Assembly (NCBI GenBank): GCA_945890485.1
Contig: CAMDCN010000003.1
Location: 310,001 to 374,000 of the forward strand
DNA from: Candidatus Sulfopaludibacter sp. SbA3
Lineage (GTDB): Bacteria; Acidobacteriota; Terriglobia; Bryobacterales; Bryobacteraceae
Reading direction: 5' to 3'
DNA: 64,000 nucleotides
This document shows, piece after piece, positions 51,535-55,685 of the stretch. The position numbers and the translations under genes are program-made. Numbering within the stretch: position 1 is the first letter of the stretch; each line of letters starts with the position of its first letter. Under the pieces are notes generated by a model. It worked only from the letters and a program-made list of their open reading frames with translations. It ran no database searches and was not told the origin of the DNA.

Positions 51535-52077
51535 ATGGCCATGCGCCGCAGTGCTCCCAAACGTTACGCCGGCGAAGACCTCATGAACTTCGCTTTGCGT
51601 TCGTTGAGCGTCCGCTCCTCCACCGTCGCCGAACTCAAGCGGAAGCTCGAATCGCGCGCCGAAGACCCAGCCGAGATCCCGGCCATCCTCGCCCGTCTCG
51701 AAGAATCTCGCCTGCTCAACGACGAACGCTTCGCCGAATCCTACGCCCAGGGCCGCCGCGACTCCCGCCTTTTCGGCCCCCAACGGGTCCGCCGCGAACT
51801 CGCCCAGCGCCAGATCGCCAAGCCCCTCGTCGAATCCACCGTCCGCGAGGCTTATGGCGAAGTCGACGAGGTCGCCCTCGCCGTCGCCCACCTCGAACGC
51901 AAAATCCGCGTTCCCGATCCCGCCGCCCATTTCAAAGATCCCAAGCATCTCCAGAGCGCCTTCCGCAAACTCGTCTATGCCGGTTTCTCACCCGGCGCCG
52001 CCAGCAAGGCGTTGAAACAGTTCTCCGCCCACGCGGCTGATCTCGAAGACTTCGACCCCACTCTCGAAGAGGATTAA
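51535..52077 (+). CDS. recX: Regulatory protein RecX
   Basis: 180 residues, three-helix repeat fold. RecX binds RecA filaments and limits their activity. Visible family segments are the first repeat with LMNFALRSLSVRSSTVAELKRKLESR, LLNDERFAESYAQGRRDSRL and FGPQRVRRELAQRQIA. The last part is RKLVYAGFSPGAASKALKQF. No recA is in this window, so the usual recA-recX pair is split. It overlaps the convergent 52074 gene by four bases. Confidence 0.92.
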   Translation: MAMRRSAPKRYAGEDLMNFALRSLSVRSSTVAELKRKLESRAEDPAEIPAILARLEESRLLNDERFAESYAQGRRDSRLFGPQRVRRELAQRQIAKPLVESTVREAYGEVDEVALAVAHLERKIRVPDPAAHFKDPKHLQSAFRKLVYAGFSPGAASKALKQFSAHAADLEDFDPTLEED

Positions 52078-52403
52078 CGCGACTCCCAGGCCGCCTTCGT
52101 AATCGTGCCTTCGGCGTCGGCGATGATCGTCACGATCAACAACTCTGGCGCCTCGGGAATCGTCTCCCGCTCCGGGCCCTTCCAGACGTACATCTGCCGG
52201 CCGCCGCTGCCCGTCACGATCTCCGTCGGGTCGCCCAAGGCCACATTGGCCCGCCGCAGCGGCTGCCCCTCCAGCCGGCCCATCAACGCGTTCATGTAGT
52301 TCCGCCGCCGCCGCTGCCGGTACACCGTGGTCCAGTCCTTGGCCACCAGCACCAGGCCCAGAATCAACACAAACGAAAAGAGCGTCAGAATCTCGATCAT
52401 CAC
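52074..52403 (-). CDS. Hypothetical protein with N-terminal membrane helix
   Basis: 109 residues from an ATGATG pair. A signal anchor (IEILTLFSFVLILGLVLVA) is followed by a basic linker (YRQRRRRNYMNALMGRLEGQ) and a small domain: RRANVALGDPTEIVTGSGGR, then MYVWKGPERETIPEAPELLI. The latter resembles a BamE/SmpA-like 'x-x-x-G-x-P' element, but I cannot place it with confidence. It stands between recX and the helicase gene. No function inferred. Confidence 0.65.
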   Translation of the reverse strand: MMIEILTLFSFVLILGLVLVAKDWTTVYRQRRRRNYMNALMGRLEGQPLRRANVALGDPTEIVTGSGGRQMYVWKGPERETIPEAPELLIVTIIADAEGTITKAAWESR

Positions 52404-52434: not shown

Positions 52435-54957
52435 GTGACTGTGAAATCCTCGCTCCTCGACGGATTGAATCCGGAACAATTGGCCGCCGCCGAGGCCGTC
52501 TTTGAGCCGGTCCTTGTCATGGCGCCCGTCGGCACGGGAAAAACGCGGACGCTCGTCGCCCGCGCCGCCCAAGCCATCGCCTCCGGCGTCGCCCCGGAGC
52601 ATATTCTCTGCGTCTCGTTCACCAATCGGGCGTCAAAAGAAATTCGAGAACGCCTCCAATCCGACCTCGGCGCCACCGCCCAAAAGATTCAAGCCCGCAC
52701 CTTCCACGGCCTCTGCGCCATCATCTGCCGCGCTGAAAGCGAAGTGCTCGGCATCGATCGCGACTTCGTCATCTGGGACGACGACGATTGCCGAGAAGCC
52801 CTCCTCCGCGTCTGCGCGAACCGCCAAATCGAGATTGACCATCACGACAACGACCGCTTCTCCGGCCTCATCGCCGGCGTCGCGCAAGACGCCAAGCTTG
52901 GCCTCATCCACACGGACTTCGAAACCCACTTCCGCGCCAAACTCGACAAGGTCAACCTCAAAAACACGAGCCGCAATCAATCCTTCCCCATCCCCAAACT
53001 CCTCGAAGACTATGAGCGGGAAATCCGCGGCAACCACGCCGTCGACTTCGCCGACCTCATCACCATGGTTCGCCATCTGTTCAATGAGGACGAGTTCGCC
53101 CTCGCCCGCTGGCAGGACCGTCTTCGCTGGATCCAGGTGGACGAAGTGCAGGATACGAACCTGCCCGAATACGCCATCCTCTCCTCGCTCGCCCGCCCGA
53201 CCCGCCACCTCGCCTTCTTCGGCGATGTCGACCAAACCATCTACGAATGGCGCCATTCGAATCCGAAGAAGATCCTCGACATCTTCCGCGCCGACTTCGC
53301 TCCTGTCCGTGAGATTCACTTCGTCCGCAACTACCGATCCACCGAACGCATCCTCGACGTCTGCCGCGCCATCATTCACCAATGCCCCGGCGCCATCACC
53401 GGCGCCCTCGAATGCCACTCTGCCGAAACCGGCCCGCCCGTTGAGTTTCACGAAGCACAAACCGCCGCCACCGAAGCCCACTGGCTCGCCCGCCGCACCC
53501 TCTCCATCCGCGCGGAAGACCAATGCGCTTGGCGCGACATCGCCATCCTCACCCGCAGCAACAACGCGGCCATGGGTATCTCGGAAGCCTTCGTCGAAGC
53601 GGGAATCCCCCACTTCCTCGCCGAGCAGTTCCGCTTCTTCCACCGCGCCGAAGTCCGCGACGCCGTCGCCCACCTCCGCCTCATCCGCAATCCGTACGAT
53701 GGCAACAGCCTCCGCCGCGTCATGCAACGCCCCCCCAAAGGGATTGGCCCCGCGACGATCGAGAAGATCCGTACTCTCCCTCGCAACCTCTGCCTCCGCC
53801 TCACCGATTTCGCTGATGCCGCCACCTATGAGCACGGCGACCCCTATCAGCCGCTCCTCGATGCCTGGGCCGAGAACCGCGTCGTCGTCTTCGATACCGA
53901 GACCACCGGTGTTGATACGTCGGACAACGAGATCGTCGACATTGCCGCCATCCGCACCGGCGCCGACGGCGAGCAAGCCCGCCTCCAGTTCGTCGTCCGG
54001 CCCCGCGGCCCTGTCGGCTTGAGCGAAACCATCCATGGCTACTCCGACGCCTATCTGAAGCAACACGGCGTCGCGCCGCTCGAAGCCCTCGAAGCCTTCT
54101 CGCAGTTCATCTCCGGCTGCGTGCTGATCGGCCACAATCTCGTCTTCGATGTCCGCACGGTGGAAGCTGCCCTGCGCCGCGAGCATCTGCCGAACTCGCT
54201 CCCCGCCCGCTGGTTTGATACCCTCGAACTCACCCGGCGCTTCCAAAGCCTGCCCTCCTACCGCCTCGGCGATATCTGCGCCGGCAAAGGCATTCCGCTC
54301 GAAAACGCCCACCAGGCCCTCGGCGACGTCCTCGCCACCGCGCAGCTCGCCGCCCGGCTCATCGTGCCGTTGCGCGAACACGCCCTGCAGCGTCGGGAAG
54401 CCATCATCACCAACGGCGGCCACTTCGCGACGCTAGCCAAACAGTTGGCCGAATGGCGCACGCTTTCGCTCGGCCGCCGCCCCCACGAAACGCTCGGCGA
54501 GATCCTCGCCGCCTCGGGCCTGGTCGAGTGGTATCGCAAACAGGACAACGGCGAAGTCCGCGTCCAAAATCTCGTCGACCTCTGCGCGATGTTCGAACGC
54601 TACGACGACCCGTCGCTGCCGCCCGAACAGGCCATCGAGGAGGTGCTCCAAATCTCCTCTCTCGGCAACGACGCCGACCGTTATCTGCAGAAGGAAGACC
54701 GCGTCCTCCTCCTCACCGTTCACCAAGCGAAGGGCCTCGAATTTCCCACGGTAATTATGGCTGCCGCCACGGACAATGAGTTCCCCGCGTGGCTTGCGCA
54801 GAAAGAGGGCCGCCTCACCGAAGAGCACCGCCTCTTCTACGTTGGAGCCAGTCGCGCGCGCCGCCGGCTCATCTTTACTTGGCACCGGCAGAACGCCTTC
54901 GGCCGTCCGCAGGATCCCAGCCGCTTCCTGCGCAAGCTTCCCGGGTTCTCAAAATGA
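52435..54957 (+). CDS. UvrD-like superfamily 1A helicase with inserted DEDDh exonuclease domain
   Basis: 840 residues, start GTG at 52435 or 52441, no strong ribosome-binding site. SF1A motifs in order: Walker A APVGTGKT (about 29-37), SFTNRASKEIRER (Ia), VDEVQDT (II, about 235), GDVDQTIYEWR (III, about 263), VRNYRST (IV, about 297), VHQAKGLEF (V, about 762), YVGASRARRRL (VI, about 802). Between IV and V, after a GIGPATIEK helix-hairpin-helix (about 436), lies a full DEDDh exonuclease: FDTETTG (about 486), GHNLVFD (about 566), H-x4-D in AHQALGD (about 625). So the exonuclease sits in the 2B region. A DNA-repair role is likely; the fusion is unusual. Confidence 0.9.
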   Translation: MTVKSSLLDGLNPEQLAAAEAVFEPVLVMAPVGTGKTRTLVARAAQAIASGVAPEHILCVSFTNRASKEIRERLQSDLGATAQKIQARTFHGLCAIICRAESEVLGIDRDFVIWDDDDCREALLRVCANRQIEIDHHDNDRFSGLIAGVAQDAKLGLIHTDFETHFRAKLDKVNLKNTSRNQSFPIPKLLEDYEREIRGNHAVDFADLITMVRHLFNEDEFALARWQDRLRWIQVDEVQDTNLPEYAILSSLARPTRHLAFFGDVDQTIYEWRHSNPKKILDIFRADFAPVREIHFVRNYRSTERILDVCRAIIHQCPGAITGALECHSAETGPPVEFHEAQTAATEAHWLARRTLSIRAEDQCAWRDIAILTRSNNAAMGISEAFVEAGIPHFLAEQFRFFHRAEVRDAVAHLRLIRNPYDGNSLRRVMQRPPKGIGPATIEKIRTLPRNLCLRLTDFADAATYEHGDPYQPLLDAWAENRVVVFDTETTGVDTSDNEIVDIAAIRTGADGEQARLQFVVRPRGPVGLSETIHGYSDAYLKQHGVAPLEALEAFSQFISGCVLIGHNLVFDVRTVEAALRREHLPNSLPARWFDTLELTRRFQSLPSYRLGDICAGKGIPLENAHQALGDVLATAQLAARLIVPLREHALQRREAIITNGGHFATLAKQLAEWRTLSLGRRPHETLGEILAASGLVEWYRKQDNGEVRVQNLVDLCAMFERYDDPSLPPEQAIEEVLQISSLGNDADRYLQKEDRVLLLTVHQAKGLEFPTVIMAAATDNEFPAWLAQKEGRLTEEHRLFYVGASRARRRLIFTWHRQNAFGRPQDPSRFLRKLPGFSK

Positions 54958-55685
54958 TGGCCCTGCTCCTGCTCCTCTCCACCTGCGAGCAAGGCGCCGA
55001 TCTCTTCCGCCAAGGCCAATGGGAACCCGCCCGCCAACATCTCGAAGCGGCCGTCCAGAACAAGCCGGACGCGTTTTGCTGGAAGTCGCTCGGCGTCGTC
55101 TACGCCGCCCTCGGCGACACGCGCCGCGCCGAGCCTCCCTTCGCCAAGGCCTGCCGGATGAACCCGAAGGAACCCGATGCCTGCTACTTCTGGGCCCGTT
55201 CGCTGTACGCCCTTGACCGCTTCGCCGATTCGCTCACCGCTCTCGACCGCGACCCCACTCCGCCGTCTGCCCGCAGCCTAACAGCTCGCGGCCAAGCTCT
55301 CGACGCCCTAGGCCGCCCTGATGCCGAAGCCGCCTTCCGCCAGGCGCTGAAGTTTTCCGATACCCCCGCTGAGCCCGATCCCCGCCTTGGCCTCGCGGCC
55401 TTTCTAACCCGCCAGGGCCGTATCCCCGAAGCGCTCTCCCTCCTCCGCTCGGCCCCGCCCGCCTACCAACAACTCGCCGCGTATCACTATCAACTCGGCC
55501 GCGCCCTCGCCCAACAAGAGCAATGGGCCGCCGCCGCCGAAGCCCTGCGCAACGCCGTCTCCCTGAAGCCGGCCTACCCCGAAGCCCACGGCCTTCTCAG
55601 CCGGGTCTACTACCGTCTCGGTGACACCACCCAAGGCGCACGCCACTCCACACTCGCGCTTCAGGGCTCGACAATCTCCAGATAG
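54954..55685 (+). CDS. TPR-repeat protein
   Basis: 243 residues from ATG at 54954, which overlaps the helicase stop as ATGA; the frame is open further upstream only inside the helicase gene. It begins MMALLLLLSTCEQGADLF, a short signal-like or lipobox-type start (Cys near 11), then tetratricopeptide repeats of 34 residues: FRQGQWEPARQHLEAAVQNK, AKACRMNPKEPDACYFWARS, AAEALRNAVSLKPAYPEAHG, LLSRVYYRLGDTTQGARH. TPRs bind other proteins. Translational coupling with the helicase-exonuclease suggests a shared process but does not prove it. The 3' end overlaps the convergent UnbV gene by 25 bases. Confidence 0.8.
   Translation: MMALLLLLSTCEQGADLFRQGQWEPARQHLEAAVQNKPDAFCWKSLGVVYAALGDTRRAEPPFAKACRMNPKEPDACYFWARSLYALDRFADSLTALDRDPTPPSARSLTARGQALDALGRPDAEAAFRQALKFSDTPAEPDPRLGLAAFLTRQGRIPEALSLLRSAPPAYQQLAAYHYQLGRALAQQEQWAAAAEALRNAVSLKPAYPEAHGLLSRVYYRLGDTTQGARHSTLALQGSTISR

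Follow-up and report, generated by a model that had tools for sequence, protein, structure and literature searches.

In the superfamily 1A (SF1A) helicases UvrD, Rep and PcrA, the 2B subdomain swivels and regulates unwinding; its cellular role is still disputed. SF1A motors are also found joined to a nuclease in one chain, as in RecB, AddA and AdnAB, where the nuclease is a C-terminal PD-(D/E)XK domain and does not lie in 2B. A DEDDh exonuclease and a helicase share one chain in ExoDinG, according to two reports (PMC11981726, PMC12525004). Here we describe a gene in a 64,000-nucleotide stretch of the Candidatus Sulfopaludibacter sp. SbA3 genome (contig CAMDCN010000003.1, positions 310,001 to 374,000; below, the window) whose 840-residue product, judged from its sequence, combines a complete UvrD/PcrA-like SF1A helicase and, inside its 2B, a complete DEDDh exonuclease. 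Helicase–nuclease fusions are well known; in the open-access literature searched, which leaves out most subscription papers, we recognised no account of a UvrD-like helicase that has a DEDDh exonuclease in its 2B subdomain.

An exonuclease domain inside subdomain 2B

The open reading frame (ORF) runs from position 52435 to 54957 of the window on the forward strand and begins with GTG. Its N-terminal helicase domain (UvrD-helicase, PF00580; residues 11-282, positions 52465-53280, E 7.8e-58) and its C-terminal one (UvrD_C; residues 294-819, E 9.8e-88) both score above the Pfam cut-offs, and the helicase motifs, including motif I or Walker A (APVGTGKT, residues 30-37, 52522-52545), are present, which places the protein among the UvrD-like SF1A helicases. 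Enclosed within the UvrD_C match is a match to RNase_T (residues 484-638, 53884-54348; E 4.3e-20; score 73 bits, cut-off 24). It contains the D-x-E, D and H-x4-D residues of a DEDDh exonuclease, namely D487 and E489 in exonuclease motif I (53893-53901), D572 in motif II (54148-54150), and H626 and D631 in motif III (54310-54327), so that membership of that family is equally clear.

The limits of the insertion were obtained by alignment with 17 PcrA-like proteins, after four near-copies had been removed. Within residues 430-719, the only stretch without a counterpart in PcrA is the uninterrupted block of residues 464-650 (53824-54384), on either side of which 2B resumes. The block follows the GIG hairpin of 2B (residues 436-438, 53740-53748), so that motif IV (N299-T303) precedes it and motif V (H763-E769) comes after it; the second half of 2B and the rest of the UvrD C-terminal domain, with motifs V and VI, occupy residues 651-819 (54385-54891). 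PcrA has a C-terminal tail (residues 655-724 of L048), most of which is without an equivalent in the fused family.

These results agree with the initial annotation of the window, made from the sequence alone, as to the coordinates, strand and length of the gene, the intact SF1A motifs, and the placing of a complete DEDDh exonuclease between motifs IV and V after a hairpin. The domain search that it proposed for the insert region returned RNase_T at residues 484-638. One of the two residues that it named for mutation, K36, is numbered correctly; the other, D486, is off by one, since residue 486 is F and the catalytic residue is D487.

Compared with UvrD, PcrA and Rep, the protein shares the SF1A motifs, both helicase domains, the GIG hairpin of 2B and the closest solved folds, and it differs in the 187-residue DEDDh insertion in 2B. 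It falls well below the NCBIfam equivalog cut-offs for PcrA (392 vs 911), UvrD (333-339 vs 965-1144) and Rep (246-319 vs 951-1168). Like RecB, AddA and AdnAB, which are structural neighbours of its predicted model, it combines an SF1A motor and a nuclease in one chain, but the nuclease is a DEDDh domain inside 2B; no PDDEXK match was found in it with Pfam, and the recB and addA_Gpos models score 99 bits against a cut-off of 696 and 145 against 708, so that it does not belong to RecB/AddA. In ExoDinG, an N-terminal exonuclease precedes a DinG-like helicase of superfamily 2, whereas here the exonuclease, at residues 484-638, interrupts an SF1A helicase. DinG models match the exonuclease only (TIGR01407, 52 bits against a cut-off of 548), and no DinG helicase domain is among the Pfam matches, which sets the protein apart from ExoDinG. 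The best NCBIfam model for the exonuclease is the DEDD exonuclease family PRK07883 (90 bits), followed by PolC (81 bits); unlike PolC/DnaQ-type exonucleases, the domain belongs to a helicase and not to a polymerase.

Two structural models were predicted. The first had a predicted local distance difference test score (pLDDT) of 74.5 overall, with a poor exonuclease. The second reached a pLDDT of 82.9 and a predicted template modelling (TM) score of 0.74, and its exonuclease is well defined (pLDDT 83-96 over residues 481-640 in blocks of ten, with one block at 67). This second model is closest to the UvrD, PcrA and Rep folds, with target-normalised TM scores of 0.77-0.83 against the DNA complexes of E. 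coli UvrD, D. radiodurans UvrD and PcrA, and of 0.65-0.67 against 1pjr, 1qhg and 3lfu. We read the model as a predicted closed arrangement, in which the position of the exonuclease is unsure. For the inserted domain, the best solved match is 2p1j, a PolC-type exonuclease (E 7.6e-38).

Conservation, distribution and joint descent

The survey covered whole genomes of two phyla, scans of plasmid, phage and viral collections, and one scan of genome contigs. In the window's family, 9 of 101 sampled genomes, the window's own included, contain a full-length match, and a cliff in E-value from 1.5e-184 to 3.3e-63 divides these from PcrA-like hits that cover only residues 7-450 or so. The scan of the phylum gave three genomes out of 396 that pass 1e-70, which are the window's own and two others. 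The close relatives are 89-96% identical. The family is not confined to this phylum: a record of Acetoanaerobium noterae (Bacillota) matches over 99% of the query, and when its protein was searched against 398 genomes in the phylum of a Lachnospiraceae genome, 22 of them passed 1e-80, a threshold that favours fused proteins, so that the count is one of fused members only. The exonuclease is present in all 22 loci.

The first scan of the viral collection gave no relative, and the scan of the phage collection gave none that covers 80% of the query. One viral-collection contig (L126), however, encodes a protein of the same architecture at about 23% identity, one among the best 80 of 272 relatives. 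This divergent fused helicase (L126:6007-8634) stands in a run of ORFs on the same strand, and apparent phage structural genes are found further on. At another locus, the fused helicase is part of a single 1964-residue frame (L045:8998-14889) with about 1150 extra N-terminal residues that have no Pfam match; the fused-helicase domains are all that Pfam finds in it, and the extension may be real or may be an accident of an open frame in GC-rich DNA.

An alignment of 36 members was used to assess conservation. It leaves out L032, whose frame departs at the C terminus; L027, whose contig we infer to be that of L037; and, among the 22 members of the second phylum, the fragmentary L065, L070 and L072. 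The five catalytic residues of the exonuclease (D487, E489, D572, H626 and D631) are invariant in all 36 members, which puts the exonuclease match beyond chance. On the helicase side, K36 is found in every one of the 35 rows that reach motif I (the remaining row is truncated short of it), the key residues are retained in motifs II, III, V and VI, and G438 of the hairpin is present in 34 of 36 members, L036 and L098 departing from the pattern by the lack of a second G. Chance or truncated motifs were rejected as an explanation because the catalytic residues are kept throughout, and a frame artefact of a GC-rich genome was rejected because 22 genomes from a different phylum and a record of the plasmid collection show this architecture too. 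The worry, voiced in the initial annotation, that the exonuclease motifs might not be conserved in homologues is removed by the survey, since homologues share the insertion together with its motifs. Its second worry, that the insertion might be both well described and widespread, applies in part: the family spans two phyla, patchily, and we found no description in the literature searched.

Three lines of evidence bear on whether the two domains have evolved as a unit. First, among seven close sequences (21 pairs), the median ratio of nonsynonymous to synonymous substitution rates (dN/dS) is 0.126 for the first helicase part (residues 1-462), 0.164 for the exonuclease and 0.099 for the second helicase part (residues 668-838), and the value for the exonuclease indicates that it is kept by selection. 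Second, exonuclease and helicase distances are correlated across 29 members (r 0.877, with none of 2000 permutations as high), six near-copies and the truncated L100 having been removed, which is what joint descent of the two parts would lead one to expect. Third, in a tree of the helicase alone, all 32 fused rows fall on one side of a branch with support of 96 in the Shimodaira-Hasegawa-like approximate likelihood ratio test (SH-aLRT; a quick search with no bootstrap). That tree is without eight unfused rows and contains viral helicases only up to L125, and both it and the exonuclease tree were made after removal of five near-copies. In the exonuclease tree the 32 fused rows do not form one clade; two changes are needed, and a single change suffices in 0% of bootstrap trees. 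The divergent L126 and the solo exonuclease L127 are long branches there, and the placement of L126 is unsettled. A further alignment (A4) was set aside because plain helicases had slid into the exonuclease columns.

The co-divergence and purifying selection visible in these sequences favour one working enzyme, and the simplest reading of its history would be a single ancient insertion, after which the two parts were inherited together, with losses or transfers along the way.

Possible functions of the fused enzyme

We think it somewhat probable, on the sequence evidence, that the protein is an accessory genome-maintenance SF1A helicase–nuclease that peels and trims a 3′-ended strand. This reading is favoured because both domains are complete, the catalytic residues are invariant, there is one insertion site, the two parts have diverged together under purifying selection, and the neighbouring genes are mostly domestic. 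UvrD-like motors move 3′ to 5′, and DEDDh exonucleases digest in the same direction. The motor would load onto a single DNA strand that has a 3′ end and run 3′ to 5′, so the tracked strand would be 3′-terminated; candidates are an invading strand, a 3′ flap, or, where there is a nick or a stalled fork, the nascent strand. The exonuclease carried on 2B would digest such ends 3′ to 5′, and one protein would thus do the joint work of a UvrD-type helicase and a separate DEDDh exonuclease. Because a 3′-terminated tracked strand suits motor and exonuclease alike, the simplest job would be to peel and trim 3′ ends, whether nascent or invading, at flaps, nicks and stalled forks. Both activities may act on one strand in one event, on substrates of this kind, and the moving 2B arm might switch the enzyme between unwinding and trimming. 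A precedent is provided by Bacillus subtilis DinG, a DEDDh–helicase protein that is reported to trim 3′ ends at forks (PMC12525004).

The same protein illustrates the main alternative, which we consider appreciably less probable, namely that the two activities are uncoupled: the exonuclease would be a working trimmer of 3′ DNA or RNA ends and the helicase core would mainly bind or regulate. B. subtilis DinG is reported to be a 3′-to-5′ exo(ribo)nuclease whose helicase activity was not robust in the conditions of that study (PMC12525004), and an insertion in 2B could hinder unwinding. Conservation of the helicase motifs argues the other way, as does selection on the helicase parts, which is at least as strong as that on the exonuclease.

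Several observations sit uneasily with the combined peeling and trimming that we favour. In structures of UvrD and PcrA with DNA, 2B is turned towards the duplex that lies in front of the motor, and the exonuclease may therefore sit in front of the motor too. In the predicted model, the segments that flank the insert (residues 431-470 and 651-690) have pLDDT values in blocks of ten of mostly 56-67, which leaves the placement of the exonuclease unsure, and the DNA-bound 1uaa_B (TM 0.67) and 9des (0.61-0.70) fit less well than the best matches. The spread of the gene is patchy even in the window's own family, where three genomes of the same genus were sampled and one of them, G078, lacks a full-length match, and we conclude from this distribution that the gene is not essential. 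The host genome (7.1 Mb, 97% complete) also encodes a PcrA-like helicase and has three PDDEXK_1 matches, all outside the fused protein; two are in adjacent frames and suggest an AddAB-like pair. Finally, the nuclease of DNA2 is reported to inhibit translocation, unlike fusions with a trailing nuclease, an arrangement ascribed to many helicase–nuclease fusions (PMC7430649); with the insert on duplex-facing 2B, its position relative to the motor becomes the key question. Since the genome separately holds the putative AddAB-like pair and the PcrA-like helicase, the fused protein is probably not a stand-in for either; replacement of AddAB in particular is unlikely, AddAB here being taken from the two PD-(D/E)XK frames only. 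The initial annotation likened the enzyme to RecBCD and AddAB, in that it could unwind and degrade one strand; this likeness is conjectural, and the coupling may differ, since RecB and AddA do not carry their nuclease in 2B.

A bolder proposal, rather unlikely in our estimation, is that the protein represents a further class of helicase–nuclease, distinct from RecB/AddA and DNA2, in which the nuclease rides on the swivelling 2B subdomain: closing of 2B would correspond to unwinding and opening would let the 3′ end reach the exonuclease, giving a built-in switch. If the proposal is true, the regulatory 2B subdomain of UvrD-type helicases becomes a processing head. More generally, a conserved natural enzyme with a proofreading-type nuclease on 2B offers a direct read-out of the position of 2B relative to 3′ ends, and it would add a helicase–nuclease whose nuclease is neither N- nor C-terminal.

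The protein could instead be an anti-phage effector, akin to the helicase of reverse-transcriptase defence (DRT) systems, a suggestion that we regard as unlikely. It arises because the top PADLOC profile for the protein is RTasHel, whose name we take to mean reverse-transcriptase-associated helicase. This profile, which has no curated cut-off, matches residues 10-835 with 470 bits, and its positions 392-510 match the exonuclease alone with 35 bits; the patchy distribution fits a defence role as well. The profile is not specific, however: the PcrA-like protein and the fused protein of Acetoanaerobium both score 436 bits. Moreover, of the 33 genomes or records checked, none has an RVT_1 match on the contig of the fused gene within 50 kb, some of these contigs being short and divergent reverse transcriptases being able to escape such a search; G556 was outside this check. 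A DRT defence locus was rejected on the result of this search. Five of 20 immediate neighbours match PADLOC models, including a dGTPase-like (190 bits, L046) and a Cas12f/TnpB-like protein (130 bits, L088), but 15 match nothing, and the other three matches are to general families of transporter type, ABC-ATPase type and, weakly, viperin-like radical SAM type. A defence profile that catches a probably domestic helicase family matters for automatic annotation. Because it scores a PcrA-like protein as highly as a fused one and yet matches the lone exonuclease, the RTasHel profile (PDLC03802) itself seems to combine different architectures, and it may assign genes to defence too readily.

Another idea, which we consider quite improbable, is that the exonuclease stands in for proofreading or mismatch excision in a lineage without DnaQ, ExoI and ExoX. 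In the host genome RNase_T matches nothing but the fused helicase, it is without any match (E 0.001) in 43 of the 61 family genomes sampled, the closest solved structure to the insert is of PolC type, and MutL-type genes are present. Those 43 genomes, however, are also without the fused gene, and the lineage evidently does not need it. In addition, DnaE1 of the host genome keeps an apparently active PHP site, judged by eye against a motif given in one report (PMC12926913), which makes proofreading probably independent of DnaQ here. The MutL-type domain DNA_mis_repair occurs in every one of 27 genomes, whether or not they carry the fusion; its co-occurrence does not discriminate and was dropped as a test of a mismatch-repair role.

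Neighbouring genes

Next to the helicase in the window are a recX-like gene (51535-52077, forward strand) and a gene for a tetratricopeptide repeat (TPR) protein (54954-55685, forward strand). The ATGA overlap with the TPR gene (ATG at 54954) and the short distance from recX, 0.36 kb upstream, had both been noted in the initial annotation and are real, but the functional links that they might suggest are not supported, since both genes were found to adjoin the helicase in close relatives only; an operon with recX and the TPR gene was rejected for this reason. Between recX and the helicase there is also a small ORF on the opposite strand (52074-52403), which is conserved in close relatives and is not part of the system. 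The GC content of the fused gene (0.639) equals that of recX and is close to that of the window (0.625). The TPR protein begins with MMALLLLLSTC, which resembles a lipoprotein-type export signal and would make it an odd partner for a DNA helicase.

Outside the close relatives, the neighbours of the fused gene differ. Annotation of them was partial: Pfam was applied to four neighbours at one locus and 10 elsewhere, PADLOC to 20 immediate neighbours, and others were judged by eye. A shared cluster order is seen in 5 of 19 contexts of the second phylum and, at the one locus annotated with Pfam, consists of an SLBB/HHH (comEA-like) gene, a Competence/ComEC-like gene, the helicase, glutamate dehydrogenase and DNA polymerase III delta. 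This order raises the prospect that the enzyme handles single-stranded DNA taken up in transformation. The helicase gene lies downstream of the comEA/comEC-like genes in these five contexts (directly in three, whereas in two it is separated from them by one or two small ORFs, the names being carried over from the one locus), but the other 14 contexts and that of the window are not beside such clusters, and we find a role in transformation very improbable. At other loci, 7 of the 10 neighbours have a Pfam name and three have none; among those named are amidase, phosphoenolpyruvate carboxykinase, isocitrate/isopropylmalate dehydrogenase, radical SAM and YceG. Most of the annotated neighbours are metabolic or housekeeping genes. 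As to the two neighbours with the more conspicuous PADLOC matches, the dGTPase-like gene (L046:7613-8845) is probably a general phosphohydrolase, and the Cas12f/TnpB-like gene (L088:12248-13510) is probably a mobile-element gene.

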